Assembly: GCA_951813535.1 (NCBI GenBank)
Contig: OX638345.1
Coordinates: forward strand, 199,029-263,028
Source of the DNA: an uncultured Dehalococcoidia bacterium
Lineage (GTDB): Bacteria; Chloroflexota; Dehalococcoidia; Lucifugimonadales; UBA3495
Direction: 5' to 3'
DNA: 64,000 nucleotides
Under the pieces are notes generated by a model, which was not told the DNA's origin, searched no databases, and saw nothing but the letters and a program-made list of their open reading frames with translations. Below, one piece after another: positions 4,917-40,486 of the stretch. Positions within the stretch are counted from its first letter, which is position 1; each line of letters begins with the position of its first letter. The position numbers and the translations under genes are program-made.

Positions 4917-4994
4917 CATCCAACCTCGTGGTTGCGGCACTGATGCCGCAGGTGTTTGGCCGTTTGGCGGTCCGGGCCCAGGGTCCGTTCCCGG

Positions 4995-23824: not shown

Positions 23825-26755
23825 ATGGCGACGGTAATGGAACGCAGGATTCGCGGCCGCGAACGTCAGGAAATCGCCGACGAGTTGACCCGGCGCGTCG
23901 ACGGCGAGGTCCGTTTCGACCCGCATTCCCGTCTGCTCTACAGCACCGACGCCAGCATCTACCAGATGGAGCCCATCGGCGTTGTCATCCCGCGCTCCTC
24001 CGCTGACGTGCAGGCCGTGGTCGAGTTCGCCGCCCGTGAGGGTATCCCCGTGCTGCCCCGTTCCGGCGGCACCAGCCTGGCCGGCCAGACCGTCAACCAC
24101 GCCATCGTCATGGACTTCAGCAAGTACCTGAACAACGTCCTCGAGGTCAACGCCGAGGAGCAGTGGGCCCGCGTCCAGCCCGGCATCATCCTGGACCAGC
24201 TCACCCGCCAGATGGGTCCCCACGGCCTGCAGTACGCGCCCGACCCCACCACCGCCAACCGCGCCTGCGTCGGCGGCGGCATCGGCAACAACACCTGCGG
24301 CGCGCACTCCGTCATCTACGGCAAGACCCTGGACCACATCCAGGAGCTGGACGTCGTCCTCTCCGATGGTTCCACCGCCCACTTCGGCGAACTAAATCCC
24401 GCCGAGCTGGAATCCCGGGTCAGCGCCGGCGGCCTGGAGGGCGACATCTATCGCGGCGTCCTCCGCATCGCCCGCGAGCAGAAGGACGAGATCGACCGCA
24501 CCTATGCCAAGATCCAGCGCCGCGTCAGCGGGTACAACCTGGACGAGTTCATCCTGGACGACGCGCGACGCGGCGGCCCGGTGAACCTGGCCCGCATGGT
24601 CGTTGGCTCCGAGGGTACCCTGTGCGTGGTCACCGAGGCCAAGGTGAACCTGGTGCAGCGGCCCACCATGACGTCGCTGTCCGTGCTGCACTTCCGCACC
24701 ATCTACGACGCCAGCGAGGCCACCACCCGCGTCCTGCGCCACGAACCATCGTCCATCGAGCTGATCGACAAGATGGTCCTCGACCGTTCCCGCGAGGCCA
24801 TGGGGAACGCGCGGCTCCCCGGGTTTGTGGAGGGCGACCCCGGGGCCATGCTGGTTGTCGAGTTCTACGGCGAGTCAGAGCACGAACTCACCGCCAAGAT
24901 GGATGGCCTCAAGGCCGACATCGGGCTCGCCTACGCCTGCGTTAACATCCTGGACCGGGCCGGTCAGGCTGCCGTCTGGAACCTGCGCAAGGGCGGCCTC
25001 GGCCTGCTCATGAGCACCCGCGGCGACGCCAAGCCCATCCCCTTCGTGGAGGACCCGGCCGTCGACCCGTCGGTGATGGGCGAGTTCGTCCGCCGCTTCG
25101 ACGAGATCGTCACCGAGCACGGCACCACCGCCGGATACTACGGCCACGCCTCCGTGGGTTGCCTGCACATCCGCCCTCTGGTCAGCCTGAAGAACCAGGA
25201 CGGCATCGACAAGATGGTTTCGATTGGAGAGGCGGTTTCCGACCTCATCAAGGAGTTCGGCGGCTCGATGAGCGGCGAGCACGGCGACGGCATCGTGCGC
25301 GGTGTCTGGACCCGCAAGATGTTCGGCGACCAGATCTACAACGCCTTCCGAGAGCTGAAGCAGACCTGGGACCCCCAGGGCATCATGAACCCGGGCAAGA
25401 TCATAGACACGCCGCCCATGACCGAGAACCTGCGCTACGGAGTCGCCTACCAGCCTCAGGCGTTGGACACCACTCTGGACTTCTCCCAGGACTTCGGCTA
25501 TGCCGGCGCCGTGGAGATGTGCAACGGCATGGGCGCCTGCCGCAAGCTGGACGGCACCATGTGTCCGTCCTTCATGGCCACCCGCGACGAGGAACACTCC
25601 ACCCGGGGCCGCGCCAACCTGCTCCGCGCCGCTCTGTCCGGCCGCATGCCCGATGGCGCCGAAAGCTCCATCACCGACCACCGGCTGCACCAGGCCCTCG
25701 ATCTCTGCCTGGAGTGCAAGGCCTGCAAGGCCGAGTGCGAGTCCGGTGTGGACATGGCCAAGCTGAAGTACGAGTTCCTGGACCACTACCATAAGGAACA
25801 CGGCGTGCCGCTGCGCTCCCGCTTCTTCGCCAACATCAACGGGCTGAACAAGCTGGGTAGCCGCTACGCGCCGCTCACCAACTGGTTGGCCGGATCCGCC
25901 CTGGGCCGTTCACTGACGTCAAAGTTCCTGGGCATCGCGCCGCAACGCCAGCAGCCGGCCTTTGCGTCAATGTCCCTGCCCGACTGGTTCGCGCGGCGCG
26001 CTCCGAACGGGCATGGCGAGGCGAAGTACGGCACGGTCGCTCTCTACAACGACACCTTTATGAACTACAACTACCCCGAGATCGGCATCGCCGCCGTGGA
26101 GGTGCTGGAGGCCGCCGGCTACCGGGTCGAACTGGTCAACGGTGGCTGCTGCGGCCGTCCCATGATCTCGAAGGGTCTGCTGGACCAGGCCCGCGACCAG
26201 GCCCGTTCCAACATCGACACGCTGTACGGCTACGCCAGCCAGGGCATCCCCATCGTCGGCTGCGAGCCCAGCTGCCTGCTCACCCTGCGGGACGAGTATC
26301 CCGAATTCGTGGCGGACGACCGCGCCCGCATCGTCGCCGAAAACGCGTCCCTCATCGACGAGTTCATCGCCAACGCCCGATCCGAGGGCCGGCTGGATCT
26401 GCAATTCTCCGACCTGGAGAAGCAGGTGCTGTTCCACGGCCACTGCCACCAGAAGGCCATTGTCGGCACCGCCAGCTCAATGGCCGTGCTCAACATGCCA
26501 TCGGGCTACCGGGCCGAGCTGATCAATGCTGGGTGCTGCGGCATGGCCGGCTCCTTCGGCTTCGAGAAGGAGCACTACGACATCTCCATGCAGATCGGCG
26601 GCCTCTCCCTCTTCCCGGCAATCGAAGCGAAACCCGACGCCGAGGTCGCGGTCATGGGCGTCTCCTGCCGCCAGCAGGTGGAGCACGGAGCCGGACGCCG
26701 CGCCCGCCACCTGGTCGAGGTGCTGCGCGACGCGGTGGTGACCCCGTCGGGCTAG
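23825..26755 (+). CDS. FAD-binding and iron-sulfur fusion oxidase (GlcD/GlcF or D-lactate dehydrogenase type)
   Basis: 976 residues, GGAGG ten bases before the ATG. The N-terminal half is a PCMH-type FAD domain (LPRSGGTSLAGQTVNHAIVM, VGGGIGNNTCGAHS) with an FAD-oxidase C-terminal domain (VGCLHIRPL, MSGEHGDGIVRG). The second half carries two Cys clusters, CNGMGACRKLDGTMC with a downstream Pro, and CLECKACKAECESGVDM, then two CCG domains (NGGCCGRPMISKG, NAGCCGMAGSFGFEKEH). This architecture oxidises a 2-hydroxyacid such as glycolate or D-lactate and passes electrons on to the quinone pool. The start of the gene has a TATACT -10-like box at 23738-23743. Its stop overlaps that of the convergent CARDB gene. 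Confidence 0.92.
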   Translation: MATVMERRIRGRERQEIADELTRRVDGEVRFDPHSRLLYSTDASIYQMEPIGVVIPRSSADVQAVVEFAAREGIPVLPRSGGTSLAGQTVNHAIVMDFSKYLNNVLEVNAEEQWARVQPGIILDQLTRQMGPHGLQYAPDPTTANRACVGGGIGNNTCGAHSVIYGKTLDHIQELDVVLSDGSTAHFGELNPAELESRVSAGGLEGDIYRGVLRIAREQKDEIDRTYAKIQRRVSGYNLDEFILDDARRGGPVNLARMVVGSEGTLCVVTEAKVNLVQRPTMTSLSVLHFRTIYDASEATTRVLRHEPSSIELIDKMVLDRSREAMGNARLPGFVEGDPGAMLVVEFYGESEHELTAKMDGLKADIGLAYACVNILDRAGQAAVWNLRKGGLGLLMSTRGDAKPIPFVEDPAVDPSVMGEFVRRFDEIVTEHGTTAGYYGHASVGCLHIRPLVSLKNQDGIDKMVSIGEAVSDLIKEFGGSMSGEHGDGIVRGVWTRKMFGDQIYNAFRELKQTWDPQGIMNPGKIIDTPPMTENLRYGVAYQPQALDTTLDFSQDFGYAGAVEMCNGMGACRKLDGTMCPSFMATRDEEHSTRGRANLLRAALSGRMPDGAESSITDHRLHQALDLCLECKACKAECESGVDMAKLKYEFLDHYHKEHGVPLRSRFFANINGLNKLGSRYAPLTNWLAGSALGRSLTSKFLGIAPQRQQPAFASMSLPDWFARRAPNGHGEAKYGTVALYNDTFMNYNYPEIGIAAVEVLEAAGYRVELVNGGCCGRPMISKGLLDQARDQARSNIDTLYGYASQGIPIVGCEPSCLLTLRDEYPEFVADDRARIVAENASLIDEFIANARSEGRLDLQFSDLEKQVLFHGHCHQKAIVGTASSMAVLNMPSGYRAELINAGCCGMAGSFGFEKEHYDISMQIGGLSLFPAIEAKPDAEVAVMGVSCRQQVEHGAGRRARHLVEVLRDAVVTPSG

Positions 26756-29700
26756 CGCACCAGCGCCGGCGCTTTGGAACACACGACAGCGCGCGGCAGG
26801 CTCTCCCCAATCTCTCGTTGGTATCGCGCGCACTCCCACGGCGAAAGCTGGGCCGAACGCCATCGCCAGTACATCCGGGCCGGATCGTAGTTTCCACCCG
26901 TTGGGTTCGGCGATACATCCATTGGCGGGCCCGATGCCGGAGCAACCGGCCGGTCAATCGGAGTTTGCCTTTTGCCGACTACCAAAATGTCGTTGCGATA
27001 CCGGGCGATCGCCGACAGGTCGGCTTCCGATGCCGGCTCGGCGAATACCACTGGGCGGTGGTCGTTGCCAAACCCGACGGTGATGTCGCGGTTGGTCAGC
27101 AGGTGAACGTGGACCCGATCCGACTCATCGTTGTCGGGGTCGGTGTCATACTCCGCATCAACGCGAGCCAGTAATTCGTAGCCGCCCACCGGGTACCGCA
27201 GTGTCTTCCACGTGAACTCCACTTCTCTGAACTCGCCTGGTTCCAAGCTTGCGCCATGTTCGTACATCGTGTCGAGGTTGGCGCTGTCGAGCAGGTAGAC
27301 CGTGCCACGGCCCGCGTATGGCCCCTGGTTCTGTACCAGGGCGGTTATCTCAACCCAATCGCCTTTCACTATCGGGCGCAGTGGGTCCGGCGCCTGGATA
27401 TTGACAACAGCAAAATCGACTTCGGCCGGCCTCAGTCCTATCTCGAATGTTCTGACCGCGCCCGCCACCCCGGGTATCTGCACGCGGAACAGATGGTCAC
27501 CAGGTTCGTATCGGCTGGTGCGCCACGTGAAGCTCGCCGTGCCAACGGCTCCCGGCGCCACGCGAGGTCGCCTCGTTTCCGGTTGCTTGTCCCCTGAAGG
27601 AAAGTGCAAAGTGACCGGTATGTTGGCCGCGACCAGCCCATCGTTGCGTACCGTGACCGTGATGCGCACCGGTTCGCCCACCACCGGGGAGTCGGGGCTC
27701 CACGATATACCCACTATCGACGCGATCAACTGGGCGGAGATGAGCCTGATCTGGATTGTGGCGGATGTGTCCAGTTCGGTGATGTTGTACTCCGCCAGAA
27801 CCGTGGCGGTAAGAGTGTGAATTCCGGGATCGTAGTTTGAAGTCTTCCAGGTGAACTCGATGCGCGCTATTTCTCCCGGCTCGATCCGCGGGGACTTCCG
27901 TTCCGGCTGCTTGTCGCCGGCCGGAAACGAGAGCTGCAATGGAACGCTCCGGGCCGACGGGCCATTGTTGATCACATCGATCCAGACTTTCACTTCCTGA
28001 CCCTGGACTGCCATCTCGCTGGGGTCGGAGCCCATGCCGACGATGGCAACGTCAACGATGGGAGGGAGTAATTCGACGGTGAACTCACGCGTTGCTGGCG
28101 GCGTGCTCGCCACTTCGACGACGAACGCGTGGACCCCGGGTTCGTAGTGGCTGGTACGCCACGCGAAAGAAACCTCGCCGGTAGCTCCCGGGTCGACGCG
28201 GGGACGCCGGGTTTCCGGCTGTTTGTCACTTGATGGGAAATGCAGCGTGACCGGGATGTTGGCCGCAATCCGGCCGTCATTCCGCACGGTCACCGCAATG
28301 GTCACCGGTTCGCCGACGCGCGGCTCCTCCGGATTTACGGCGACGTCCACGATTGTCGCATCGATTATCAGGGGTGTCAGGGCGAACCTGATTTCCTCCG
28401 CAGTTCGGCCAAATGTAATGTTGCCGCCGAGGCGGATGGCCGCGCGCAAAGTGTAAATGCCCGGTTCGTAGTTTGAAGTTTTCCACTCGAACCAGACCCT
28501 CGCGGTTTCGCCCGGGGCCACCCGTGGCGACCGGACCTCCGGGCGCTTGCTGGCGGATGGGAACGTGAGCCGAACCGGAACGTTCAGGGCAACCGGCCCA
28601 TCGTTGCGGACGTCGATCCACACTTCCACCGGTTCGCCCACCATCGCGGTTTCGACCGGGTACGTGCCCATGCCCACAAGCGCGACGTTTTCCACGGTAG
28701 GCAATAGTTCGACAGTGAAGCGCTGTTGGGGAGTGTCTACGGCCGCTACCTCGATGCTGAATCGGTGCGTGCCCGGCCGGAAGTTGCCGGTGAGCCATTC
28801 GAAAACCACCGTCCCGGTTTCACCCGGATCCAGGCGCGGCTTCCTGCTATCAGGCTGTCTGCTGCCCGGCGGGAAGTGCAGCGCAATCGGGATTCTAGTC
28901 GCAACCGGCCCGTCGTTGCGAACCCTCACCGCTATCGAAACCGGCTCGCCTACCATCGGCGCTGTCGGGTATACCGAGACATCCACGATTGTTGCCGCGA
29001 CCACCAGCGGGGAGACACGGAACGGCAATTCCATCGATGTCTCGCCACCGGCGACGTTGTGCTGCTCGGGCACGGTCGCGGTTAGCATGTGCTCGCCAAC
29101 GGCGTAATCCCTGGTTTTCCATGCGAAACGGACGGTCTCAGTCGATTCTGCGGGCACCGACGGGCTGCGTGTCTCGGGGTTCTTGGTTGCCGATGGGAAG
29201 TGCAAGGTTACCGGCACGTTGACGCTGGCCAGCCCGTTGTTCCGCACCTCAACCTCGACCGCGACCTCTTCGCCCTGCATCGCGGTCTCCGCGGGCAACG
29301 CGTCGATGCTGACTATCTCGGCGTCGATGTGAACGGTGATCTCCGAATTGACAACGGCGATGGGGCCAAAGTCTTCTGAGAACGCAACTAATTTTAGAAT
29401 GTGTTGTCCCAGCATTTTGGCAGAGGCCGGGACACGCCAGGCAACCTGCTCTTCAGCCTGACCGTCCGACGCCAATTCATCGAGGTTTTTCGTGACTGTG
29501 GGTTCCAGCTCATCGTCGACATACAATTCCAGGTTGATGAAAAGGGCCACCTCGCTTTTGTTATGGATCGCCAGGGATACCGTAACGTCGTCGCCCAGCA
29601 TCAGGACCTCGGGCGAAACGGAGACGTCCAACATCTCAACCTCGACCATTGGGCCCATTCGGGTAATTTCAACGGTCGCCGTGTTGTTTTCCGGCGACTG

Positions 29701-32700
29701 ATCGATTGCCGCCGAGAGCAGGACTTCAACGGTATGAGCGCCGGGCAGCACACCCGTCACCGGCACTTCCAGACTTGCGGTTTTAGTTTCGCCCGCCCGT
29801 ATGACCATCGTATGCCGGTACAATTCCTGCGGTTCTGTTCCGTCCGTGGGAATCAACGCAAACCGGACGCTTGCCGGTTCGGTTGTCGGTCCGTCATTGG
29901 CCACCTCAACGGCAATTTCGACGGTTTCGGCGGCGAACCCCAGGGTGGTCTGTAGCGGTTGAACAGATACCAGTCGGACATCCACCGCTCCGAATTCCGG
30001 CCCGGACAACGACTGGCGCGGGCTGACTTCTTCGTCGTTTTGTTCCCCAAGGCGCACCACCAAATCCTCAGGATGGACGATATTCATCCGGTCTGTTGAC
30101 GCATTGGAGTTATTGGATACGTCGATGTCCACGAAGTCTTCCGGCCTCACAATGGTGACGGCAGCGTTGATCGGCTGGTCGCTCAAGGCCGGAAGCGTGG
30201 GAATTGTCCACGCGATTTCGCCCTCCGACTTTCCGCCGAAGGGAACGACGCAATTCGAAAAGCAGAGCGCTTCGGTATCGTTGACCGCGTGGTCCCCGGG
30301 GCCGCTCATCGTGATGGCAAGTGTGATGTCCGTCTGGCAGCTGAAATTGTAGATCCGGTACGCGGCCTTCAGTTGCTCGCCAACAAGGTAGTTCGGCGGC
30401 GAACGTTTTTGGCCGCTGAAGTCCCGGATGTCGGTGACTTTTATTCGGACATCCTCAACGCAGCCGTCCACATCTTCAGCGCCGTCGAATGCGGATCGGA
30501 ATAGCTCGATTTCCAGAAAATGCTCGTTGTCGGCGGTAGTAGTGTCCTCGGGAAGTTCCGCAGCGATTTTCAGCGTATGCGTTCCGACGCTTTCCCCGGT
30601 GGAGTCCCACTGCAGCCCCACCTCCGAACTGGATCCAGGCTCGATGCGCGACGATGTTCCCGTTGACGCAACCGTCGTTTGTTGCAGATCTCCGACCAGG
30701 TACAGGCCCACGGGTACCGCGACCGCGGCTTCTCCATGGTTGGTGATACTGGCAGCCACCTCCAGGGTTTGGCCGATGGCAGCCACGTCGCGATTGACGG
30801 TCGCAGCCGTGAGCGCCACGGCCATGACCGGCGCCCGGAGGGTCACGTCGAGCAGCGCTTCATCGTTGGAGTCGGCGTTGTACTCCGCAGAGCCAGCTAC
30901 GACCTTGAGCTGATACTCGCCGGGTCCGTCATCGCCGGCATCCCATGTCACGCTGGTCCCGACGGTTTCCCCGGCCGGGATTGACTCGATGGTTGCAGTT
31001 TCGCTCGCCTCTTCGGAGTCCCCGACATACAAACCGACCGCGACGTCGGTGACCTCGGCGTCGCTCTCGTTGAGCACCTGTACATTGACGGTAACGGACG
31101 ACCCGGCCACGTTGTCTGTCGATGCGAGAACGGCCGATGACAGCGCTATGGGATTTCGGAGATCAATGTTGACCCTTTGGCTGTCGTCTCCATCCGGGTC
31201 CTGACCATCCACGCCGGCGGATACTATGAGGCCGAGCACTTCGACCTCCCGACCGTCTGTGTCCCATTCAAATGTGGCGTCGGCGGTACTACCCGCTGCT
31301 ATGGACGCAATCGTCGTGGAACCCAGCGTGCCGGTCACGTTGGGTTCGAACAGGCCAACCGTCAAGTTGGTCAGTTCTTCCTGCCCGACGTTCGCAACCC
31401 GGGCGGCTAACTCGACCGCTTCCCCAACCACCGCGACGACCCTTTCCGGAGTGACGCTCTGGAGCACCAACCAGTTGCGTATTTCGATGCTTGCCGAGAC
31501 TGAGTTATTCCTCTGATCCGTATCCCCGGCCGTGGTTGCCACCAGCAAGATTTCATAGTGGCCGACATTCGCGTCCGCAGTGTCCCATGTCAGCGTGTCC
31601 GAGGTCGATTCATTGACTGCCAACGTTGATACATTGGCAGTCGCCGTAGCTTCCTCCTCCTGATCTTGACCGGCTTCAGTGACATAGAGACTGACCAGCA
31701 CTTCGACTGTGTCGTTCTCTCCAGAGTTGGTCACGGTAAACGGCACAGTCACGGAATTGCCGTTGACCGCTGAGGAGGCAACGGGACTGGTCAAACTCAA
31801 CGCGACTTCCACCGGATCGTGCAGGGTGAGCGATGCAGTCGCGCTGTCGTTGGTTGAATCGTCGTCGTCAGCAACCGTGGCGACTGCACGCAGACTGTAT
31901 GTCCCGGCTTCTGCGTCGTCGGTATCCCATGAGATGCTGACGGTGCCTGTCCCTCTGACCACGATCGTGGCGGCGGTCGCAGAGCCTAACGCTTCCGTGT
32001 CGTCCCCTTTGTATAACGAAACGGCGGGGGCAATCGCGACGTCGCCGTCATTTTCGAGGGAGACGGTGAAATCAACCGTTTCCCCAATGATCGCTTCGGC
32101 CGGCGACGCTTTCAGCGCGGTAACGGCGATGTCGATAGACGGCTCACGAAGGGTCACTCTGACCGTCTTGCTATCGTTCGCCGAGTTGCTGTCCCCCTCG
32201 GCTTCTGCCAGCACGCGCAGATCGTGTTCTCCCGCCTCTGCGTCGTCCGTGTCCCATGAGAGCGTCACCATGCTCTCTCCGTCGGCCGCGAGATCGGAAA
32301 CCATGGTTGAATCCAGTTCGTCCGTATCCTCGCCAAGGTCGAGGGTAACCGTGGCGTCGGCCTCCGCATCGCCGTTGTTTCTGATAGTAACGGTGAAATC
32401 AATGTCATCCCCAATCAAGGCCGCCGTCTTGGACGCCGTAGCCGATTTGACGGCGACGTCAACCGTAGACACTTCATTAACTATGTTGATGGCGTCAGTT
32501 GAGGTGGCGCTGTTATTGCTCGTATCGGCGTCGCTGAAATCCGACGGCGCGTCGATCGTTACGGTAGCAACCACCTTTTCACCGGTGGCGTTGGGGTGCT
32601 TGCTCAAATCCCACTGGGCGTTCGATTGTTGCGTTGCGCCGGCGGCTATGGTGCATCCGTCCAGACAAGGCGCTGAAGAGCCGTCGGCATCGTGAATTGT

Positions 32701-33021
32701 CGCCCCACTCACCGACCCCGTCAGAACCACTGTGACCGTTACTTCGCGGCAGCTCGCATTGACAACATCGTAAAAAATCACGATATCGTCCCCATTGGCG
32801 TAATCGGGAGGATCCTGGAAAACGTAGCCGTTACCGCGATCATAAATGGACAGATTCTGCACGCTCAGGTCGTCAACGCAGGACTGTTGCGGGGTCGCGC
32901 TCTCTGCAACTCCGGCAGGCAGGAATGCCTTCCAACCGGCGAGACCGGGCGACATGATTGCCAAAGCCACGCAACCGGTTGCCACCGCCAGGGTCAGTAC
33001 CAGCGGACGGACGCCGTTCAC
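26752..33021 (-). CDS. Giant secreted CARDB-repeat protein
   Basis: 2,089 residues. A signal peptide (residues 1-41, hydrophobic core LVLTLAVATGCVALAIM) is followed by a Cys-containing domain (about 48-185) and roughly 15 CARDB-like beta-sandwich repeats of about 100 residues, with the pattern VGExVxxxVxVxNxGxxxA and WxTxxYxPGxHxL. The first Cys domain recurs at about 852-980 with its Cys pattern kept (CV[DE]D, SC, CxxxC) and both copies ending near NIV. The last third alternates two repeat types (A and B) in about 210-residue supermodules, A repeats sharing IPVTLHFPS and KQPETRRPRV. No LPxTG, dockerin or C-terminal anchor is seen. Likely extracellular surface or matrix protein. Operon partner is the gene at 33067. 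Confidence 0.88.
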   Translation of the reverse strand: MNGVRPLVLTLAVATGCVALAIMSPGLAGWKAFLPAGVAESATPQQSCVDDLSVQNLSIYDRGNGYVFQDPPDYANGDDIVIFYDVVNASCREVTVTVVLTGSVSGATIHDADGSSAPCLDGCTIAAGATQQSNAQWDLSKHPNATGEKVVATVTIDAPSDFSDADTSNNSATSTDAINIVNEVSTVDVAVKSATASKTAALIGDDIDFTVTIRNNGDAEADATVTLDLGEDTDELDSTMVSDLAADGESMVTLSWDTDDAEAGEHDLRVLAEAEGDSNSANDSKTVRVTLREPSIDIAVTALKASPAEAIIGETVDFTVSLENDGDVAIAPAVSLYKGDDTEALGSATAATIVVRGTGTVSISWDTDDAEAGTYSLRAVATVADDDDSTNDSATASLTLHDPVEVALSLTSPVASSAVNGNSVTVPFTVTNSGENDTVEVLVSLYVTEAGQDQEEEATATANVSTLAVNESTSDTLTWDTADANVGHYEILLVATTAGDTDQRNNSVSASIEIRNWLVLQSVTPERVVAVVGEAVELAARVANVGQEELTNLTVGLFEPNVTGTLGSTTIASIAAGSTADATFEWDTDGREVEVLGLIVSAGVDGQDPDGDDSQRVNIDLRNPIALSSAVLASTDNVAGSSVTVNVQVLNESDAEVTDVAVGLYVGDSEEASETATIESIPAGETVGTSVTWDAGDDGPGEYQLKVVAGSAEYNADSNDEALLDVTLRAPVMAVALTAATVNRDVAAIGQTLEVAASITNHGEAAVAVPVGLYLVGDLQQTTVASTGTSSRIEPGSSSEVGLQWDSTGESVGTHTLKIAAELPEDTTTADNEHFLEIELFRSAFDGAEDVDGCVEDVRIKVTDIRDFSGQKRSPPNYLVGEQLKAAYRIYNFSCQTDITLAITMSGPGDHAVNDTEALCFSNCVVPFGGKSEGEIAWTIPTLPALSDQPINAAVTIVRPEDFVDIDVSNNSNASTDRMNIVHPEDLVVRLGEQNDEEVSPRQSLSGPEFGAVDVRLVSVQPLQTTLGFAAETVEIAVEVANDGPTTEPASVRFALIPTDGTEPQELYRHTMVIRAGETKTASLEVPVTGVLPGAHTVEVLLSAAIDQSPENNTATVEITRMGPMVEVEMLDVSVSPEVLMLGDDVTVSLAIHNKSEVALFINLELYVDDELEPTVTKNLDELASDGQAEEQVAWRVPASAKMLGQHILKLVAFSEDFGPIAVVNSEITVHIDAEIVSIDALPAETAMQGEEVAVEVEVRNNGLASVNVPVTLHFPSATKNPETRSPSVPAESTETVRFAWKTRDYAVGEHMLTATVPEQHNVAGGETSMELPFRVSPLVVAATIVDVSVYPTAPMVGEPVSIAVRVRNDGPVATRIPIALHFPPGSRQPDSRKPRLDPGETGTVVFEWLTGNFRPGTHRFSIEVAAVDTPQQRFTVELLPTVENVALVGMGTYPVETAMVGEPVEVWIDVRNDGPVALNVPVRLTFPSASKRPEVRSPRVAPGETARVWFEWKTSNYEPGIYTLRAAIRLGGNITFGRTAEEIRFALTPLIIDATIVDVAVNPEEPRVGEPVTIAVTVRNDGRIAANIPVTLHFPSSDKQPETRRPRVDPGATGEVSFAWRTSHYEPGVHAFVVEVASTPPATREFTVELLPPIVDVAIVGMGSDPSEMAVQGQEVKVWIDVINNGPSARSVPLQLSFPAGDKQPERKSPRIEPGEIARIEFTWKTSNYDPGIHTLTATVLAEYNITELDTSATIQIRLISAQLIASIVGISWSPDSPVVGEPVRITVTVRNDGLVAANIPVTLHFPSGDKQPETRRPRVAPGAVGTASFTWRTSRYEPGDHLFRVQIPGVAGAVRTFEIGLRPAEVDFAVVNIQAPDPLRPIVKGDWVEITALVQNQGPYAGRGTVYLLDSANLDTMYEHGASLEPGEFREVEFTWKTLRYPVGGYELLARVDAEYDTDPDNDESDRVHVHLLTNRDITVGFGNDHRPVVFAEPASEADLSAIARYRNDILVVGKRQTPIDRPVAPASGPPMDVSPNPTGGNYDPARMYWRWRSAQLSPWECARYQREIGESLPRAVVCSKAPALVR

Positions 33022-33066: not shown

Positions 33067-34098
33067 TCAGGAGCTCGGTTTGGTGTACACAAACATGACC
33101 GCCCCGGTTGCGGTTGCTCCGGTGTCGACGGCGACTGTAACTTCGTAGAGACGGCTCGCATCGTCGGTACGTTCCAATTCGAAGCCCGATACGGCCAACC
33201 GGGAGGGTTCCTGAACTGTCACGACCGCATTGCCATCTACCATCAATTCGGCCGTCACCGCGGATTGATCCTGCGTCCGCCTACTGGTGATCAACACCGC
33301 TGCCGACGCCAGGATGTTGTCGATGGTCGGCGGGACTACGAACCTGACCGGATCGGATGTCCCTCCTTCTGACGCATGGCTGAACAGGATAAAGGCGTTA
33401 TACTCCGGATGTTGCCAGTGGTAATAGCCGACCGTGTCGTGATCCGCCTCGACGATTTCCGGCACGTCTTGCCTGGCAACTGACAGCACCTCGTTAATGG
33501 CCAGGACCAGAAGGTTCTGTTTCAGATCGTTCGCCGGCAGGTTCGCCGAGTCGTACTGCCAGATGCCGGCGGCAGGCGCGTCGGACGGCAGATATGCCAC
33601 GACCCACCCGCGGTCATCGAAATACACCGTGACCCGTGTAGGCGGCACTGTGGGCCCGAAGTTCTTCGTGGCGGACATCGGCAACTCCACTATGCCAAAA
33701 TTGCCTCCCGAATCCACATGGTGGCCGGGGTCCACGCGGTTGCTGTTTGATTCGTCCGGATCTTCGAGCAGGGCATTCGTGATGGCGAATACATTGAGTC
33801 GCGGACGGAGGTCATTTTCCCCGTCTCCCTGGAAGTGGTCCGGAACCCGGTGATGCGCAGAAAAGCCAGCAGCCTCTTCACGAAACGCCGTGGTATCGTC
33901 GCTCTGGGAGGTGGCCGCCAAATCGTTCGGCTCCGCCAGGCCCCAAACTGTTACAGTACCAGTGCGCGCTTGGCTGGCTTCTGCCGGTGATCCATTGCCC
34001 AGCCAGAAAATCAGGGCAGCCGACACAGCAACAGCCACATGAACCCAGAGCAAACGATTGGAAATTAGTTCTCGATACGACGTGTTTTGATGTTTCAT
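33067..34098 (-). CDS. Membrane-anchored or secreted protein co-transcribed with the giant CARDB gene
   Basis: 343 residues from the ATG at 34098; an upstream ATG at 34188 would add a 30-residue tail before the membrane segment and is less likely. A hydrophobic segment (VHVAVAVSAALIFWLG, about 19-34) ends near SPAEASQA, a possible signal peptidase site. The remainder is exported: Asp/Asn/His-rich GQ-like stretch HFQGDGENDLRPRLNVF, a beta-rich middle (RVTVYFDDRGWVVAYLPSD), and a C-terminal beta domain ending VMFVYTKPSS. The central part with YLPSDAPAAGIWQYD resembles exported Chloroflexi proteins I cannot name. It precedes the CARDB gene by 45 bases. Confidence 0.7.
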   Translation of the reverse strand: MKHQNTSYRELISNRLLWVHVAVAVSAALIFWLGNGSPAEASQARTGTVTVWGLAEPNDLAATSQSDDTTAFREEAAGFSAHHRVPDHFQGDGENDLRPRLNVFAITNALLEDPDESNSNRVDPGHHVDSGGNFGIVELPMSATKNFGPTVPPTRVTVYFDDRGWVVAYLPSDAPAAGIWQYDSANLPANDLKQNLLVLAINEVLSVARQDVPEIVEADHDTVGYYHWQHPEYNAFILFSHASEGGTSDPVRFVVPPTIDNILASAAVLITSRRTQDQSAVTAELMVDGNAVVTVQEPSRLAVSGFELERTDDASRLYEVTVAVDTGATATGAVMFVYTKPSS

Positions 34099-34198
34099 AG
34101 GGCAAAATCGCACGACTTCGTCAAAAGGTGTGTGAAACGAGCAAAGTAGTGGCTTGATATTGCACGATATTTGGTGTGAACATCCCATACCTTTGACT

Positions 34199-34226
34199 TG
34201 CCACTAATTGGGGCGTGCTGGATAAT
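34199..34226 (+). promoter_or_regulatory. Candidate promoter of the membrane HTH gene
   Basis: TTGCCA (34199-34204), 16-base spacer, GATAAT (34221-34226), about 70 bases upstream of the ATG and just before the palindrome at 34249-34270. Confidence 0.45.
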
Positions 34227-34248
34227 AAGCACGAGATTGCCGAAAGTC

Positions 34249-34270
34249 TGTGCAAATGCCAATTTGCACA
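34249..34270. promoter_or_regulatory. Perfect 9+9 palindrome, candidate operator of the membrane HTH regulator
   Basis: TGTGCAAAT, spacer GCCA, ATTTGCACA: arms are perfectly complementary. It lies 27-48 bases before the HTH gene start, downstream of its candidate promoter, in a position to block transcription. A related half-site (ATTGCACG) occurs near 34159 in the same divergent region, closer to the secreted-protein operon. Confidence 0.6.
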
Positions 34271-34296
34271 TGTCACTGTCGTAGCGTGCAGAAAAC

Positions 34297-35757
34297 ATGG
34301 GACTGGAACGCGAGGACCGCCGGTTGAGAGCCGCCCAGGTGGGTATGCTGATGCGGGCCTACCGCGAGTCCTTCGTGCAGCCCGACGGTCGCAAAGGCCT
34401 TACCCAGGAAGAGTTGCTGGGCCGCATGGCGGAAGTGGATGGCCAGTACGGGGAGCGGTACAGCCATAGCACCGTGTCCCGCTGGGAGTCTGGTGCGACG
34501 CGCCCGACCAAGCAACGGTTGATAGCGTTTGGCAAAGCCCTCGAACTGTCATCGGTGGAAGTGGAAGGGTTGATAACCTTGGCGGGTCTGGATAGCCGTG
34601 ATCCGCCTGTCCCCCTTCACCAAATGTCCCCTTCGGGCACCTCACGCGCTGGCGTTTCTGATGACTCGAGGGATGCGCTGGCGAATCTCGGCGTTGCGGA
34701 TTCTCAGGCCGGGGAGAGATTGGTCGCTTCATCCAATCTCTCCGGAGCGATCCGTTTTTGTCTCTCGCGGTTCCTGTTGCCGGGACTGTGCGTCGCTGGC
34801 GGCGGGTATGTGCTGTCGTCCCTTGGTTGGACCGCAGACTGGATACTGACCTTCTTCATTGCCGTCGTTATGGGGCTGGTGCTGACCCAGGGATTTCTCC
34901 GGATGCGCAAGGGGGATCAGCTACGCGAATTCTTCTTCGTGTCGCTGTTCTTCCTGCTGAGTACCCCCTTGCTGCAGATGCCGCTAATTCGCATGGACAA
35001 CTATGGCCTCTACACCATCCCCGATTTTGCGGGCACGCCGATACCCTGCCTGCTGGCGCTGTTGGTGAACTTGGCTCTGGCTCTAATTGCAGGGCTGATG
35101 TTCGACTTTTTGTGGAAATGGCAGTACTCCAAGGAAGTCAGCGAGCGACGGGCTCCGCAGAGAGCGGCGTGGGTTGCGCTCCTGCCGTTGGCATTTGTTT
35201 ATTGCTGCGTCATGGTCATCTCCAACGTTGGCTCCTGGATACATCTTACGGTGATTATGCCCGTTTTAGGCGTCGTGTTTATCACCCTGCTGGTGCTGCG
35301 CGACCCGGTCGTCACGCCGCGGGAACGCGATCTGAGATTCCTGCTTTGGGCGGTGGTGACGGCGATTATCGTACTGTCGGCCCTCGGCGGAGCCGCCATC
35401 CTGACGCTCTATCTGGCGCCCAGTTCGCTGCCCCAGCCGGACCATAACCTCCTGTATTCCTGGAATATCGATTTCGCCGCGCTGGGATACACCCAGGATG
35501 AGTTGACCGAAAGATTGCATCTCGGATTTATCTGGGTCGCGCTGTCCAATCTCGTTTACGTGGTGGTCGTTATTGGAGGGAACCTCATCGTCGCCATCTA
35601 CAGGCGTGGCAGCGGCAGCGGCGCCCAGCCCGCCACTGGGGTCTCCGAGCTGTCCGTCTCCGAGCCGTCTGATGAGCCTCCTCACTCTCAACAGATGAAA
35701 TCCCTCTTTATCCCCAAACTTATCCGAAATCGCCCTGGCGATCCTCGAGCAGCTTAG
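34297..35757 (+). CDS. XRE-type HTH protein with multi-pass membrane domain
   Basis: 486 residues. An N-terminal helix-turn-helix (about 10-90) has GLTQEELLGRMAEVDG and YSHSTVSRWESGATRPTKQRLI, the Cro/C1-type fold. A linker (about 90-150) leads to about eight hydrophobic segments, for example LPGLCVAGGGYVLSSLG, WILTFFIAVVMGLVL, EFFFVSLFFLLSTPLLQM, LLALLVNLALALIAGLM, WVALLPLAFVYCCVMVI and LSNLVYVVVVIGGNLIVAIY. DNA-binding domain should be cytoplasmic with the membrane part acting as sensor. It is divergent from the secreted CARDB operon, with a palindrome in front. I do not know a described family with this architecture; a one-component membrane regulator is the inference. Confidence 0.82.
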   Translation: MGLEREDRRLRAAQVGMLMRAYRESFVQPDGRKGLTQEELLGRMAEVDGQYGERYSHSTVSRWESGATRPTKQRLIAFGKALELSSVEVEGLITLAGLDSRDPPVPLHQMSPSGTSRAGVSDDSRDALANLGVADSQAGERLVASSNLSGAIRFCLSRFLLPGLCVAGGGYVLSSLGWTADWILTFFIAVVMGLVLTQGFLRMRKGDQLREFFFVSLFFLLSTPLLQMPLIRMDNYGLYTIPDFAGTPIPCLLALLVNLALALIAGLMFDFLWKWQYSKEVSERRAPQRAAWVALLPLAFVYCCVMVISNVGSWIHLTVIMPVLGVVFITLLVLRDPVVTPRERDLRFLLWAVVTAIIVLSALGGAAILTLYLAPSSLPQPDHNLLYSWNIDFAALGYTQDELTERLHLGFIWVALSNLVYVVVVIGGNLIVAIYRRGSGSGAQPATGVSELSVSEPSDEPPHSQQMKSLFIPKLIRNRPGDPRAA

Positions 35758-35827
35758 AAACGGACCCTGATCGCTCCGAACACAAGGCCATTTCGTGGTC
35801 AGTGAGATAATCCTGTAGCGCGCTGCC

Positions 35828-35874
35828 AATCCCGCAGGTCTCGTCAACTCAAGCGGCGAAGCCTGCGGGATTTT
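35828..35874 (+). terminator. Hairpin between the membrane HTH gene and imuB
   Basis: 11-bp perfect stem (AATCCCGCAGG with CCTGCGGGATT), 23-base loop, followed by TTC. Lies 70 bases after the HTH stop. Confidence 0.5.
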
Positions 35875-35897
35875 CATGACATCCCGGCATGTTATAA

Positions 35898-35909
35898 GAA
35901 CGTCTGTGC
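35898..35909 (+). promoter_or_regulatory. SOS-box-like sequence upstream of imuB
   Basis: GAAC-4-GTGC differs by one base from the Gram-positive-type LexA core GAAC-4-GTTC, 17 bases before the imuB ATG and next to TTATAA. Suggestive only; no lexA in the window. Confidence 0.3.
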
Positions 35910-35925
35910 TGTTATCTTGTGGCGC

Positions 35926-37326
35926 ATGGACACCACAGTCGGATGCCTGCTGGTTACGCACTTTCCCGTAAAGGCCGAACTGGCGCGACGGCCTGATCTG
36001 GCGGGCCGCCCCTTGGTTGTGGCCACCGGAGACTCCGGCCGTCGCCTGGTGGTGGACGCCTCGCCGGAAGCCGGAGACGTTCGTGCCGGACAGACGTTGA
36101 CGGAGGCATTGTCCCGGTGTGCGGAGGCGGTGGTTTTAGCCGTAGATGACCAGTATTTGTCGTCATTCAACGATGATCTGATGCTCTCGCTGTTTCAGGT
36201 TGTGGATCGAGTGGAGCCGGACGGTTACGGTCGTTTCTATCTGGACCTGACCGGGATGGCGTCCATGCACGGCGGAGCGTCCGGCCTGGAGACGGCGATC
36301 CTGTCCACGATTGATTCCAGCCTGCAACCCCGGCTGGGGTTGGCGTCAGGCAAGTTGCCGGCCTACTGCGCTGCGGCCAGCGCCGAGGTCGGCAAGGGGT
36401 TCACGGCCCCGGGAAACGTCGCTCGATGGCTGGCGCCCTGGCCGGTGTCGTGGCTTCCGCTGGACCCCGATATCACGGCGCGGTTGCGCGGTTTTGGCAT
36501 CGCCACGCTGGGCAACGTGGCCGCGATGCCGGCACACGTCCTGGCGGATTTTCTGGGAGTCGTTGGATACCGAGCCTGGAAGCTGGCCCAGGGCATTGAT
36601 GACGACCCGGTGGTTCCGGCAGCGCTGCCGGAGGTGCTTCACGAACGCATGGAGTTCCCGTTTCCGGTGGATACGGTTTCCGGTTGGGAAGCCGGCGTTC
36701 GCCTGTTGTCCGAACGCATTTGGAAGGCTCCTGGCCTTCAGGGTAGAGGGATAACGGAAGTATCGATCGAGGGTGAGCTTTCGCCGAATGGCATCTGGCA
36801 ATTTGACCGGCGTCTTCGCACCCCCGCCGGCTCATCCGATAGTCTGGCGTCAACGATTCTGGCCGGGTTGAATGCCCAGGACAACCGGGGTCACGGTCGC
36901 TGGCCCTGCGCAGCCTTGACGGACCTGTCGCTCACGGTGTCCGGCCTGGTCCATTTGGGCGGTCGGCAAATGGGCCTGTGGCTGGCGGAGCGCCGGGGTG
37001 CGGCCGTCCCGACGATTGACGGAGTTGACCGTCCCGTGGCGCTGGCTCTCGGGTCGCCCTTGCCGGAGCGGCGGTGGGCCCTGGGTTCCGAGCTGACGCC
37101 GCTGGGCCGGGTCGCCGCCGTGGCCGTTTCCGCGGTCCAAAACGTGCCTCGAGCAGTGGAGTCGCACTCCGTCCGGAAAGTGATTGACCTGTGGGAAGTG
37201 GATACCGAGTGGTGGATGCCCGAGCCGGCCCGCCGGCGGTACTGGCGCCTGGTGGTGGACGGAGGCAAGTTGCTCACGGTGTACCGCGACCTCGCCACCG
37301 GCGAGTGGTATCGGCAGGGTTACTGA
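35926..37326 (+). CDS. imuB: ImuB-like Y-family polymerase homologue
   Basis: 466 residues from the ATG at 35926. ImuB is a catalytically dead Y-family polymerase that links the beta clamp to DnaE2 in the mutasome. The N-terminal strand reads GCLLVTHFPVKAELARRP, lacking the catalytic Asp of the YxDxDxFFA motif, and the second motif is FYLDLTGMASMHGG, both ImuB hallmarks. A palm/thumb region with RLRGFGIATLGNVAAMPAHVLADFLG (helix-hairpin-helix) follows; the C-terminus (WWMPEPARRRYWRLVVDGG) is a DUF6504-like tail seen in ImuB. One base separates it from dnaE2. No imuA/recA-like partner precedes it. Confidence 0.88.
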   Translation: MDTTVGCLLVTHFPVKAELARRPDLAGRPLVVATGDSGRRLVVDASPEAGDVRAGQTLTEALSRCAEAVVLAVDDQYLSSFNDDLMLSLFQVVDRVEPDGYGRFYLDLTGMASMHGGASGLETAILSTIDSSLQPRLGLASGKLPAYCAAASAEVGKGFTAPGNVARWLAPWPVSWLPLDPDITARLRGFGIATLGNVAAMPAHVLADFLGVVGYRAWKLAQGIDDDPVVPAALPEVLHERMEFPFPVDTVSGWEAGVRLLSERIWKAPGLQGRGITEVSIEGELSPNGIWQFDRRLRTPAGSSDSLASTILAGLNAQDNRGHGRWPCAALTDLSLTVSGLVHLGGRQMGLWLAERRGAAVPTIDGVDRPVALALGSPLPERRWALGSELTPLGRVAAVAVSAVQNVPRAVESHSVRKVIDLWEVDTEWWMPEPARRRYWRLVVDGGKLLTVYRDLATGEWYRQGY

Positions 37327-37327
37327 C

Positions 37328-40300
37328 TTGTCCACCGGCTTCATTGAGCTTTGCGCCCACTCCTGGTATTCCTTCGGCGCTGGCGCTTCGTCTCCGGCAG
37401 AGCTGGTGGAACGGGCCGGTTGTTACGGCTATCCAGCCCTGGGTGTGACCGATACGAGCAATTTGTGCGGCGCGCTGGATTTCGTGCAAGAGTGCCGGTC
37501 CGCTGGCATACAGGCGATACTGGGCGCCGACCTGACCGTTCGGGAGGGTGACCGGAGTGGCCCGGTGACCTTTATCGCGGAGAGCGGCGCGGGTTACTCC
37601 AACCTGTGTCGGCTGATATCGCTGGCGCACGTAACGGGCGGACGAACCACGCCGGTTCTGGACATCCGCTTCCTGGAGCCGCACGCCGAGGGTCTTATCG
37701 TACTGCTGGGGAATCCGGATGGCCTGCTGGCGGAGGACATTGCCGCCGGACGCTGGAGCATGGCCGAGGGACGGGCAAGGCAATACGCCGGCTGGTTCGG
37801 CGCCGGGTCGGTATTTCTGGCGCTGCAGCAGCATCTGGTCCATGGCGATACCGTCCGCAACGAGCGTATGTCACAGCTGGCGGAGCGGTGTGGCCTGGGC
37901 TGCGTTGCGACCAATGCTCCCTGGTATCACGATGCCTCCCGCGCACGGCTGCACGACTCGCTTACAGCCATGCGCTTGAACTCTTCTCTAAGCGAGATAC
38001 GTAACAGTCTTAAGGTCAATGGCAACTACGATCTGCAAGCAAGAGATGTGATGCAACGACGCTTCCGCAAATATCCGGAGGCCCTTGCCAACACACTTTT
38101 CCTGGCGGAGCGGTGTTCCGATTTTGGCGCGCTGGATTTCGTTGCCAGCAGCTACCGTTTCCCGGATGTGCCCACGCCGCCGGGCCACGACGCGCAGTCA
38201 TGGCTGGAGCGTCTCTGCGAGGAGTCGGCAGCGCGACGCTATGGCGGTGTCGACCGGCGGGTGAGAGAACGCCTGGATGAGGAGTTCAGGCTAATCCGGA
38301 AGCATGGTTTAGCCGGGTTCTTCCTGGTCTATCACCGGGTGGTGGAACTGGCGCGCGAGGTCATGCTGGAGCTGGGATGGGGACACCAGGAAACGCCCCT
38401 GGAGTGGCTCCCTCCGGGTCGTGGGCGCGGCTCCTCGGTGTCAATGCTGGTGGGATACCTGATCGGCCTGTCCCACGTTGACCCGCTGGACTACGGCCTG
38501 GCCCTGGACCGTTTCCTGTCGTCCGAGAGCACGTCGATGCCGGATATCGACCTGGACTTTCCCCGGGACATACGCGAGCGTCTCATACTGCGCATCATCG
38601 AGGAGTGGGGTTGGGACCATGCCGTACTGACGGGAATGTTCCCCACGTACAAGGCGCGAGGGGTGGTGCGGGGACTGGGCAAGGCCCTGGGATTGCCGCC
38701 TGACGAGGTGGGCGCGCTGGCCCGTCGGCTGGATTCCAACTCCGTGTCGGAGCTGCCCTATCTGCCCGGCTACGGGGAACTGGTGAAGCGGCCGGGTTGG
38801 GACCGCCTCTTCGCCCTTGCCGACAGCCTCCAGGGCTTTCCCAAGGGTGTGGCGCAGCACCCGGGCGGAATGCTGCTGAGCTCCACCGCCCTCACGGACT
38901 TCATGCCGGTGCAGCCGGCCGCCATTGCGGGACGCTACATCGGCCAGTGGGACAAGGAGAGCGTGGATGACGCCGGCATGGTGAAGATCGACCTCCTGGC
39001 CCTGGGAGCCCTGTCCCAGTTGCAGCAGGCGGTGCGGCTGGTCCGGAACCGCACCGGCATTGAGCCGGACCTGAGCCGGATCGACTACCGGGAGCAGGAC
39101 GTTTTTGACGACCTGGGGCGGGGTGACACCGTGGGAGTCTTCCAGGTGGAGTCCGCGGCGCAGATGCAGACCATTGTGCGTATGCATCCCCAGGACATCT
39201 ACGAGCTGGCCCTGGAAATCGCTGCGGTGCGTCCCGGTGTGGGGGCGCATGACGGCGTGGCGGAGTTCCTGCGCCGGCGCAAGGGGGCTGACTGGGAGTA
39301 TGCTCACCCCCTGGAACAAGGAGCCCTGGAGCGGTCGCTGGGAGTGATAATGTTCCAGGATCAGGTGGTGCAGCTCGGCATGGACGTGGGCGGTTTCACC
39401 GCTGCGGACGCGGACCGGATGCGACGCGCTTTTGGACGCCGTAACGGCGCCGCCCTGGTGGCGGAGTACCGGCAGCGTTTCCTGCAGGGCGCCCGTGAGC
39501 GCGGCGTGCCCGAAAATGCGGCCGAAGCGATCTTCGGGAAGTTCAATCCCCACTACATGTTTCCGGAGGGCCACGCCCTAGCGTTCGCTTTTACCGCCTA
39601 CCAGATGGCGTGGCTGCGCCGTCACTACCCGCTGGAGTTCTACGTCGCGCTCTTCAACGAGCAGCCCATGGGCTTCTGGGACCTGGACACGCTGAAGCAG
39701 GATGCCCGACGGATCAACCTGCGGGTGGCCCATCCCGACATCAATCGTTCCGGGCTGCTGTGCACCGCAGAGGGCGAGCGCACGCTGCGGCTGGGGCTGA
39801 CCTTTGTGAAGGGCGTGGACCGTCGCCTGGGCGAGATTCTGCTGCGCGCGCGCGAGGCCGGCGAATTCAGGGGCCTGGCGGATGTGCTGGCGCGCTCCGG
39901 CCTGCCACGCCGGGCATTGGAGAACCTGGCCCGCGCCGGCGCAATGGACAGCCTGCCGGATGTCACCGACCGGGGCAGCGCGCTGTGGCAGATCGGGGCC
40001 GGCTACGTGCCGGACGCGCGCCGCGGCCAGCTGGCGCTACCCATGGCGGTGGCCGAAGCGCCGGCAGCGGTGGCGTCGAAGAACCGGTCCATGCTGATGC
40101 TGGACGAATACGACATGCTGGGCCTCTGCCCGGATGGCCACATCATGGAACTGGCGCGCCACGAGCTGAGAGGAGTGCATAGCAGCGATACCCTGGAGGG
40201 CTGCCACGAAGGCGATGTGGTCCGCGTGGCGGGCCGGGTCGTCAGGCGGCAGCGTCCCCTGGCCCGGGCCGTGTTCCTCACCCTGGAAGACGAATTCGGG

Positions 40301-40486
40301 TTGATACCGGTGGCCGTTTGGGAGCAGCGCTGGGAGATGCTCAAGCACGTGCTGCGGCGGCCGCTGGTCGTCATTGAAGGTAAAGTTTCCCGCCGGGACA
40401 ACACACTCAACGTGATGGCGGAACGGGCGTGGCCACTGCGGGCCGATATGGAATTTCACGCCGGTTCCGGACATGACTGGAGGTAA
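37328..40486 (+). CDS. dnaE2: Error-prone DNA polymerase III alpha subunit DnaE2
   Basis: 1,052 residues from a TTG at 37328, one base after the imuB stop, which gives the expected start of the PHP domain (IELCAHSWYSFGAG). The first His of the usual HxH is Cys, consistent with loss of PHP metal chemistry in DnaE2. Polymerase residues are in SMPDIDLDFPRDIRERL (about residue 400), with RGSSVSMLVGYLIGLSHVDPL and VAQHPGGMLLS; an OB domain (GDVVRVAGRVVRRQRPL) lies near the C-terminus. It performs mutagenic translesion synthesis with ImuB. Length and order match DnaE2. The 50-base gap to the convergent kinase gene holds nothing. Confidence 0.93.
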   Translation: MSTGFIELCAHSWYSFGAGASSPAELVERAGCYGYPALGVTDTSNLCGALDFVQECRSAGIQAILGADLTVREGDRSGPVTFIAESGAGYSNLCRLISLAHVTGGRTTPVLDIRFLEPHAEGLIVLLGNPDGLLAEDIAAGRWSMAEGRARQYAGWFGAGSVFLALQQHLVHGDTVRNERMSQLAERCGLGCVATNAPWYHDASRARLHDSLTAMRLNSSLSEIRNSLKVNGNYDLQARDVMQRRFRKYPEALANTLFLAERCSDFGALDFVASSYRFPDVPTPPGHDAQSWLERLCEESAARRYGGVDRRVRERLDEEFRLIRKHGLAGFFLVYHRVVELAREVMLELGWGHQETPLEWLPPGRGRGSSVSMLVGYLIGLSHVDPLDYGLALDRFLSSESTSMPDIDLDFPRDIRERLILRIIEEWGWDHAVLTGMFPTYKARGVVRGLGKALGLPPDEVGALARRLDSNSVSELPYLPGYGELVKRPGWDRLFALADSLQGFPKGVAQHPGGMLLSSTALTDFMPVQPAAIAGRYIGQWDKESVDDAGMVKIDLLALGALSQLQQAVRLVRNRTGIEPDLSRIDYREQDVFDDLGRGDTVGVFQVESAAQMQTIVRMHPQDIYELALEIAAVRPGVGAHDGVAEFLRRRKGADWEYAHPLEQGALERSLGVIMFQDQVVQLGMDVGGFTAADADRMRRAFGRRNGAALVAEYRQRFLQGARERGVPENAAEAIFGKFNPHYMFPEGHALAFAFTAYQMAWLRRHYPLEFYVALFNEQPMGFWDLDTLKQDARRINLRVAHPDINRSGLLCTAEGERTLRLGLTFVKGVDRRLGEILLRAREAGEFRGLADVLARSGLPRRALENLARAGAMDSLPDVTDRGSALWQIGAGYVPDARRGQLALPMAVAEAPAAVASKNRSMLMLDEYDMLGLCPDGHIMELARHELRGVHSSDTLEGCHEGDVVRVAGRVVRRQRPLARAVFLTLEDEFGLIPVAVWEQRWEMLKHVLRRPLVVIEGKVSRRDNTLNVMAERAWPLRADMEFHAGSGHDWR

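Follow-up and report, generated by a model that had tools for sequence, protein, structure and literature searches.

A perfect inverted repeat at positions 34249-34270 of the window, the 64-kb stretch of DNA analyzed here, is the visible tip of a longer conserved element that lies just upstream of a gene for a helix-turn-helix (HTH) protein with putative membrane helices. The element and its spacing are conserved upstream of this gene in five families, and copies recur at other loci. It is near certain that it is a conserved regulatory element. Our preferred reading, to which we give a probability of roughly 60%, is that it is a DNA operator of a transmembrane one-component regulator that would control itself and a small regulon, with the HTH-membrane protein as the candidate binder. 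The features of the locus are the following.

26752-33021, minus strand: gene for a 2089-aa protein with repeated CARDB domains, adjoining the divergent gene
33067-34098, minus strand: divergent gene, 343 aa from the ATG at 34098 (alternative start 34188), with a hydrophobic N-terminal stretch and no family match; a second possible target of the element
34198-34226, plus strand: sigma-70-like promoter TTGCCA-17-GATAAT, both hexamers unchanged in the two closest orthologues
34244-34254, plus strand: left conserved block AAGTCTGTGCA; of 14 representative sites, 13 or 14 retain each base from G 34246 to A 34254, in part by selection, because this block was included in the patterns or models used to find the sites
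34249-34270, plus strand: perfect inverted repeat TGTGCAAAT-GCCA-ATTTGCACA, containing the left half-site TGTGCA and the inverted half-site TGCACA
34264-34270, plus strand: right (inverted) half-site TTGCACA; TTGACA/G or TTCGACA in other members
34285-34295, plus strand: third half-site CGTGCAGAAAA, directly oriented; it lies 36 bp beyond the first and ends 1 base before the ATG
34297-35757, plus strand: membrane HTH gene, a 486-aa ORF with an N-terminal XRE-type HTH (Pfam HTH_31, residues 15-90; HTH_3)

The perfect palindrome with a 4-base spacer that the original prediction had picked out is confirmed by direct reading of the sequence, and it does lie just before the membrane HTH gene, separated from the ATG at 34297 by 26 bases. 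Allowing up to 3 mismatches reveals no second match in the window, and the exact sequence has one copy in the 4.38-Mb genome, with 2 further places at 3 mismatches. The statement that such a repeat is very unlikely by chance was too strong: from 40 first-order Markov simulations, ∼5.3 perfect inverted repeats (arms of 9, spacers of 0-10) are expected per 64 kb; requiring a spacer of 4 lowers this to 0.5. The window contains 17 with spacers of 0-10, nested ones included. Perfect symmetry is lost at the inner two pairs even in the two closest orthologues, G001 (86% identity) and G013 (84%), where the palindrome position reads TGTGCAAAAGCCAATTTGCACA and TGTGCAAAAGCCAAATTGCACA, respectively; the outer seven pairs are kept, so that of the three genomes only the one under study (G000) has the perfect repeat. 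Both orthologues also keep TGTGCAAAWGCCAAWTTGCACA and the two promoter hexamers, the upstream TTGCCA-17-GATAAT being identical. The palindrome is notable for its place in a short intergenic region and above all for its conservation, not for its rarity.

The palindrome forms the middle of an arrangement that reads -10-like box, N13, AAGTCTGTGCA, N9, TTGCACA, N14, CGTGCAnAAAA. The conserved unit is this longer asymmetric element, made up of AGTCTGTGCA, a right arm with A-C, TGTGCR, and the -10-like box. Common to the aligned sites are the left and right blocks, a third block (GTGCAnnAAAA), and a -10-like box that precedes AAGTC by 23 bases. Among 14 representative sites, our own choice from 25, each base of GTCTGTGCA is kept in 13-14; in the -10 box, A2 recurs in 13 and T6 in 12, and no -35 stands out in these 14. 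The -10 box and the third block were absent from the patterns with which the genus was searched (TGTGCAA-N8-TTGCACA and AAGTCTGTGCA-N10-TGCACA). The right arm is TTGACA or TTGACG in most members beyond the species group, and at least two members (set B in G001 and the site at the HTH gene in G019) carry 1 or 2 extra bases between the arms. The half-site centers are 16 bp apart, which is wider than usual for XRE dimers and speaks against the HTH protein as the binder.

Conservation at the HTH gene extends well beyond the species group. HTH homologues at 49-50% identity in G019 (another genus) and G054 (another family) have the three blocks at near-equal spacing and distance from the start. The protein was searched across 250 genomes of the order, with homologues defined by E ≤ 1e-60, which gave 20 homologue-bearing genomes; a sequence-only model of the element (R2), built from 17 sites, was run on 250 genomes of the order with stricter filters. 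At E ≤ 0.001, R2 matches 10 of the 20 homologue-bearing genomes and 0 of the other 230, where five of the ten had contributed to the model and a site before the HTH gene entails the gene by construction; minus the five model genomes the comparison is 5/15 against 0/230. At E ≤ 0.05 it is 12/20 against 6/230, and the other 8 homologue-bearing genomes have no R2 match at that threshold. G034 just misses the stricter cutoff (0.00101), with a match inside a coding frame by ORF call. In G210, G074, G078, G075, and G217, none of which is among the building sites of R2, the site lies 19, 36, 37, 37, and 22 nt, respectively, from an HTH protein match that begins at residues 4-8. The independence of the unseen genomes matched at E ≤ 0.001 (G074, G075, G077, G078, and G210) is limited because four of the five share a genus and because the sites of G077 are on a different contig from its HTH gene. 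The models omit the poor matches L127/L155 (G013 C143) and L130/L137 (G002 C111), and we set aside weak R2 matches in G034, G060, G102, G196, G218, and G079 (E 0.00101 to 0.046) and further weak model matches in G009 and G003 (TGTGCACA tandem array). We note that in G003, of the same genus, a tandem array of TGTGCACAACGAA/TGTGCACAACGGAA-like units occupies ∼1460-1560 of locus L139.

The element is not universal before homologues. When 36 HTH-homologue loci were scanned, 11 matched: in 10 the site directly precedes the HTH gene, and in L188 a weak match lies ∼250 nt away; the remaining 25 show no element match at E ≤ 1, and 26 of the 36 therefore have no site directly upstream. Across 25 loci, TGTGCA was absent within 300 nt upstream in 15 that lack the element and present in 5 that lack it. 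In a protein tree of 33 sequences, which leaves out L029 (internal stop), L046 (contig end), and L193 (internal stops), the 10 element bearers cluster but do not form one clade, with 4 changes against a mean of 8.7 after shuffling and none of 500 shuffles as low. The co-occurrence of element and homologue partly reflects shared ancestry, because the genomes with extra sites are close relatives. The description of the palindrome as a strong operator candidate holds in that the element is rare, with 4 sites at E ≤ 0.05 in its own genome, and is kept upstream of the orthologues in G001, G013, G019, G054, and unseen genomes, so that neither of the refuting observations named in the original prediction was made; it does not hold for the perfect symmetry or for most homologues, which lack the element, and binding by the HTH protein stays a prediction.

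An AlphaFold model of the HTH-membrane protein (23 sequences, mean pLDDT 76.2, pTM 0.59) contains the HTH helices, a low-confidence linker (residues 101-145), and, from residue 143 to 439, eight long helices. As modeled, a DNA-binding domain and putative membrane helices are present in one chain, which is the architecture of the transmembrane transcription regulators (TTRs), a general kind of one-component regulator acting at the cytoplasmic membrane (PMC10269533); the main text of that paper mentions neither "Chloroflexi" nor "XRE". NCBIfam gave matches below the cutoff only, and Foldseek with the model gave no match at E ≤ 0.001. Its top match is 3pxp, a PAS and DNA-binding protein (E = 0.12), and among the weak matches the HTH part resembles the XRE domains of BldD, ClgR, C.Esp1396I, and TP901-1 CI. 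The same genome encodes two further homologues, one at 46% identity with an internal stop and one at 48%, and up to seven matches occur in other members of the genus. Almost all of the scanned HTH-homologue loci encode nearly the same recognition-helix stretch, SHxTVSRWESG.

The HTH-membrane protein is the simplest and most likely candidate binder because the element accompanies its gene in five families. In the mechanism that we favor, the palindrome would be the core of a multi-half-site operator that closely follows the -10 box of the membrane HTH gene (roughly +17 to +38, assuming that transcription begins some 7 bases past that box), with the third half-site at the start codon. Judged from the -10 box and the block positions, the palindrome falls just past the predicted start, a position suited to blocking transcription, and the three similar half-sites suggest cooperative binding. 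The cytoplasmic XRE-type HTH domains would occupy the half-sites, the bound protein would block its own promoter, and the signal would probably be sensed via the membrane helices. From the same divergent region, the opposite gene, often one for an exported protein, may be modulated as well, and copies of the element elsewhere would extend control to a small regulon.

Pattern searches of the 14 genomes of the genus located such copies. TGTGCAA-N8-TTGCACA with 1 mismatch occurs at 11 places in 4 of the 14 (two in G000, four each in G001 and G013, one in G012), compared with one place for its backward control, and in 9 of the 11 GTC directly precedes TGTGCA on one strand. AAGTCTGTGCA-N10-TGCACA with up to 2 mismatches gives 12 sites in G000, G001, and G013, the three genomes with the close orthologue, and none in the other 11 genomes; its backward control gives 3 matches. 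With the sites at the HTH gene designated set A, those elsewhere (sets B-I) represent seven locus kinds, E and F being counted together.

Set B: between a gcvH-like and a DUF3090-like gene, as we take these neighbors to be; G000, G013, G001
Set C: beside a CoA-transferase-like gene and an exported-looking protein; G000, G001
Set D: upstream of a heavy-metal P-type ATPase-like gene; G001, G013
Sets E and F: the same locus kind by eye; G013 (E), G001 (F)
Set G: variant with right arm TTCGACA; G000, G001, G013
Sets H and I: G077 and G078

Comparison of orthologous intergenic DNA shows the element as a conserved block amid diverged sequence in sets B and D; in set C the whole intergenic region is conserved and is little informative. 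The set B locus of the genome under study (L121) also has a second perfect dyad, GTGCAAAGC-GCT-GCTTTGCAC, at 1624-1644, ∼120 nt after the element, of which G013 and G001 keep the left half CATGTGCAAA only.

We scored the nearest divergent ORF at each locus type except I for a 17-residue stretch of mean hydropathy ≥2.0 near the N-terminus. Such a stretch was found in 8 of 12 locus types (set A in the triad, in G019/G210, in G054, and in family f19, and sets C, E/F, G, and H), including 4 of the 7 types away from the HTH gene, and was not found for set A in G217 or for sets B and D. The eight types amount to about six protein kinds because three of them have similar-looking divergent proteins, and within them single genomes fall short (set G in G000, set A in G075 (no ORF call), and set A in G074 (1.81)). 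Such a stretch is present in 7 of 139 control ORFs taken from imuB and lexA loci, these controls being unmatched in orientation and, unlike the site ORFs, filtered by composition. A Pfam scan of ten proteins gave one match above the cutoff (cadherin-like, L169). In L020, L021, L189, L194, and L195, the divergent gene of an HTH homologue (several families) encodes an exported-looking protein with a common stretch near TMxECxxxLxAGxAVxC.

The copies away from the HTH gene also bear on whether the element could be a real operator of another transcription factor, for which the HTH-membrane gene is one target among several. By the ORFs read, sets B-I are not beside an HTH gene, and the element is missing from paralogues whose recognition helix is nearly identical; both observations count against binding by the HTH protein. 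However, at E ≤ 0.001 the element is limited to genomes with an HTH homologue, as given above, and beyond the species group, in G019, G054, G210, G074, G075, G078, and G217, with G077 the exception, the best site precedes the HTH gene. We consider a different factor unlikely on this balance.

Rather more improbable is that the blocks act as RNA, for example as a hairpin or a pairing seed, in a short leader or small RNA made from the conserved -10. The conserved blocks do follow the -10-like box on its strand, and in sets B-I no ORF of at least 180 aa starts on that strand within 180 nt. By eye, the forward strand of set C enters a G+C-rich hairpin. A common 6-bp hairpin is obtained from 11 sites, and in a slide control the pairing falls from 87% to ≤65%, a drop that a palindromic consensus would give in the same way. 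This explanation is weakened because covariation is absent: across 17 sites, 0 of the 6 stem pairs are changed on both sides, so there are no compensatory changes; two pairs are broken in 5 of the 17, and the observed pairing was reached in 500 of 500 shuffles. Moreover, no Rfam match reached the gathering score in six element loci, and the sequence past the element in set D is poorly conserved.

In the species group, the HTH-membrane gene is directly followed by ImuB-like (IMS domain) and DnaE2-like polymerase genes (34297-40486). This would be the setting expected of a LexA (SOS) box belonging to the cassette, which we nevertheless consider highly improbable. The best ImuB matches of G019 and G054 are not on the contig of the HTH gene, and the link between the HTH gene and mutagenesis may be accidental for that reason. 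Eight lexA loci of relatives have neither TGTGCA nor TGCACA in the 200 nt upstream of the domain match, two lexA loci (L096, L097) carry TGTTCG-CAA-CGAACA instead, and G009 and G011 have an ImuB relative (57%) with neither an HTH homologue nor an R2 match at E ≤ 0.05. Between the HTH and imuB-like genes lies an inverted repeat with 16-nt arms (35828-35872, 88%), perhaps a terminator. Upstream of imuB, at 35890-35911, there is one stretch resembling the left half-site, AACGTCTGTGCT, overlapping TGTTATAAGAACG; the former is kept in G013 and has one change in G001.

A functionless chance palindrome is barely credible even with ∼5 such inverted repeats expected in 64 kb and orthologues without perfect symmetry, since the fixed spacing is kept in five families and the model matches in unseen genomes lie just upstream of a homologous gene; chance is refuted for the larger element and may account for the inner two base pairs of the palindrome.

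Our preferred reading, a self-controlling membrane regulator at its own operator, can be set beside known systems. Autoregulation from inverted half-sites is usual for soluble XRE-type repressors, with half-sites closer together than here. BldD, ClgR, C.Esp1396I, and TP901-1 CI, which share the HTH fold with the model at weak E-values, are soluble proteins, unlike the putative membrane regulator described here, and in contrast to soluble XRE repressors the element has a third half-site 36 bp from the first. Transmembrane one-component regulators are themselves a known kind, as the papers on BcrR and HigX describe. BcrR of Enterococcus faecalis combines a DNA-binding domain with a helical membrane domain, lacks obvious extracellular domains, and acts from the membrane (PMC3968067, PMC13384398). 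The likeness is one of general architecture; BcrR has four transmembrane helices (PMC13384398) compared with the eight long helices modeled here, and it responds to bacitracin. HigX of Caulobacter (PMC13384398) is likewise associated with the membrane: its ChIP-Seq targets include cell-envelope promoters, its motif is an inverted repeat, and in some strains it is induced with the SOS response. As presented there, HigX is discussed with LytTR-type DNA-binding domains, whereas the protein here is XRE-type; its motif, ATGTTASC-GSTACCAT, is spacerless and differs from our element; and its SOS link is the upstream higBA, whereas here the ImuB-like and DnaE2-like genes merely follow.

Our searches of open-licence literature found no paper on the motif. 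We tentatively suggest, at somewhat below even odds, that the protein represents an unnamed family of eight-helix membrane XRE regulators, with a spacing-locked three-half-site operator downstream of the -10 in several families, and a regulon rich in divergent genes for exported proteins, so that a membrane sensor would set the expression of surface proteins directly, with no second component. If right, this would define a site and its regulator as a pair open to testing, together with a short list of targets, for a multicopy membrane-regulator family in an order represented here mostly by multi-contig genomes, and it would offer a direct way to ask how a regulator without an obvious extracellular domain acts from the membrane.

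A phage origin was also considered and rejected, as the two proteins tried have no PHROGs match and the exact motif is absent from the viral contigs. The exact 22-mer pattern does occur on 13 stretches of the genome_contigs collection, in records labeled as other bacterial kinds. One of these, a Clostridiaceae metagenome contig (L016), carries the exact palindrome twice, 82 bp apart (4818-4921), and other contigs with the same isolate label (L008, L010) carry more copies.
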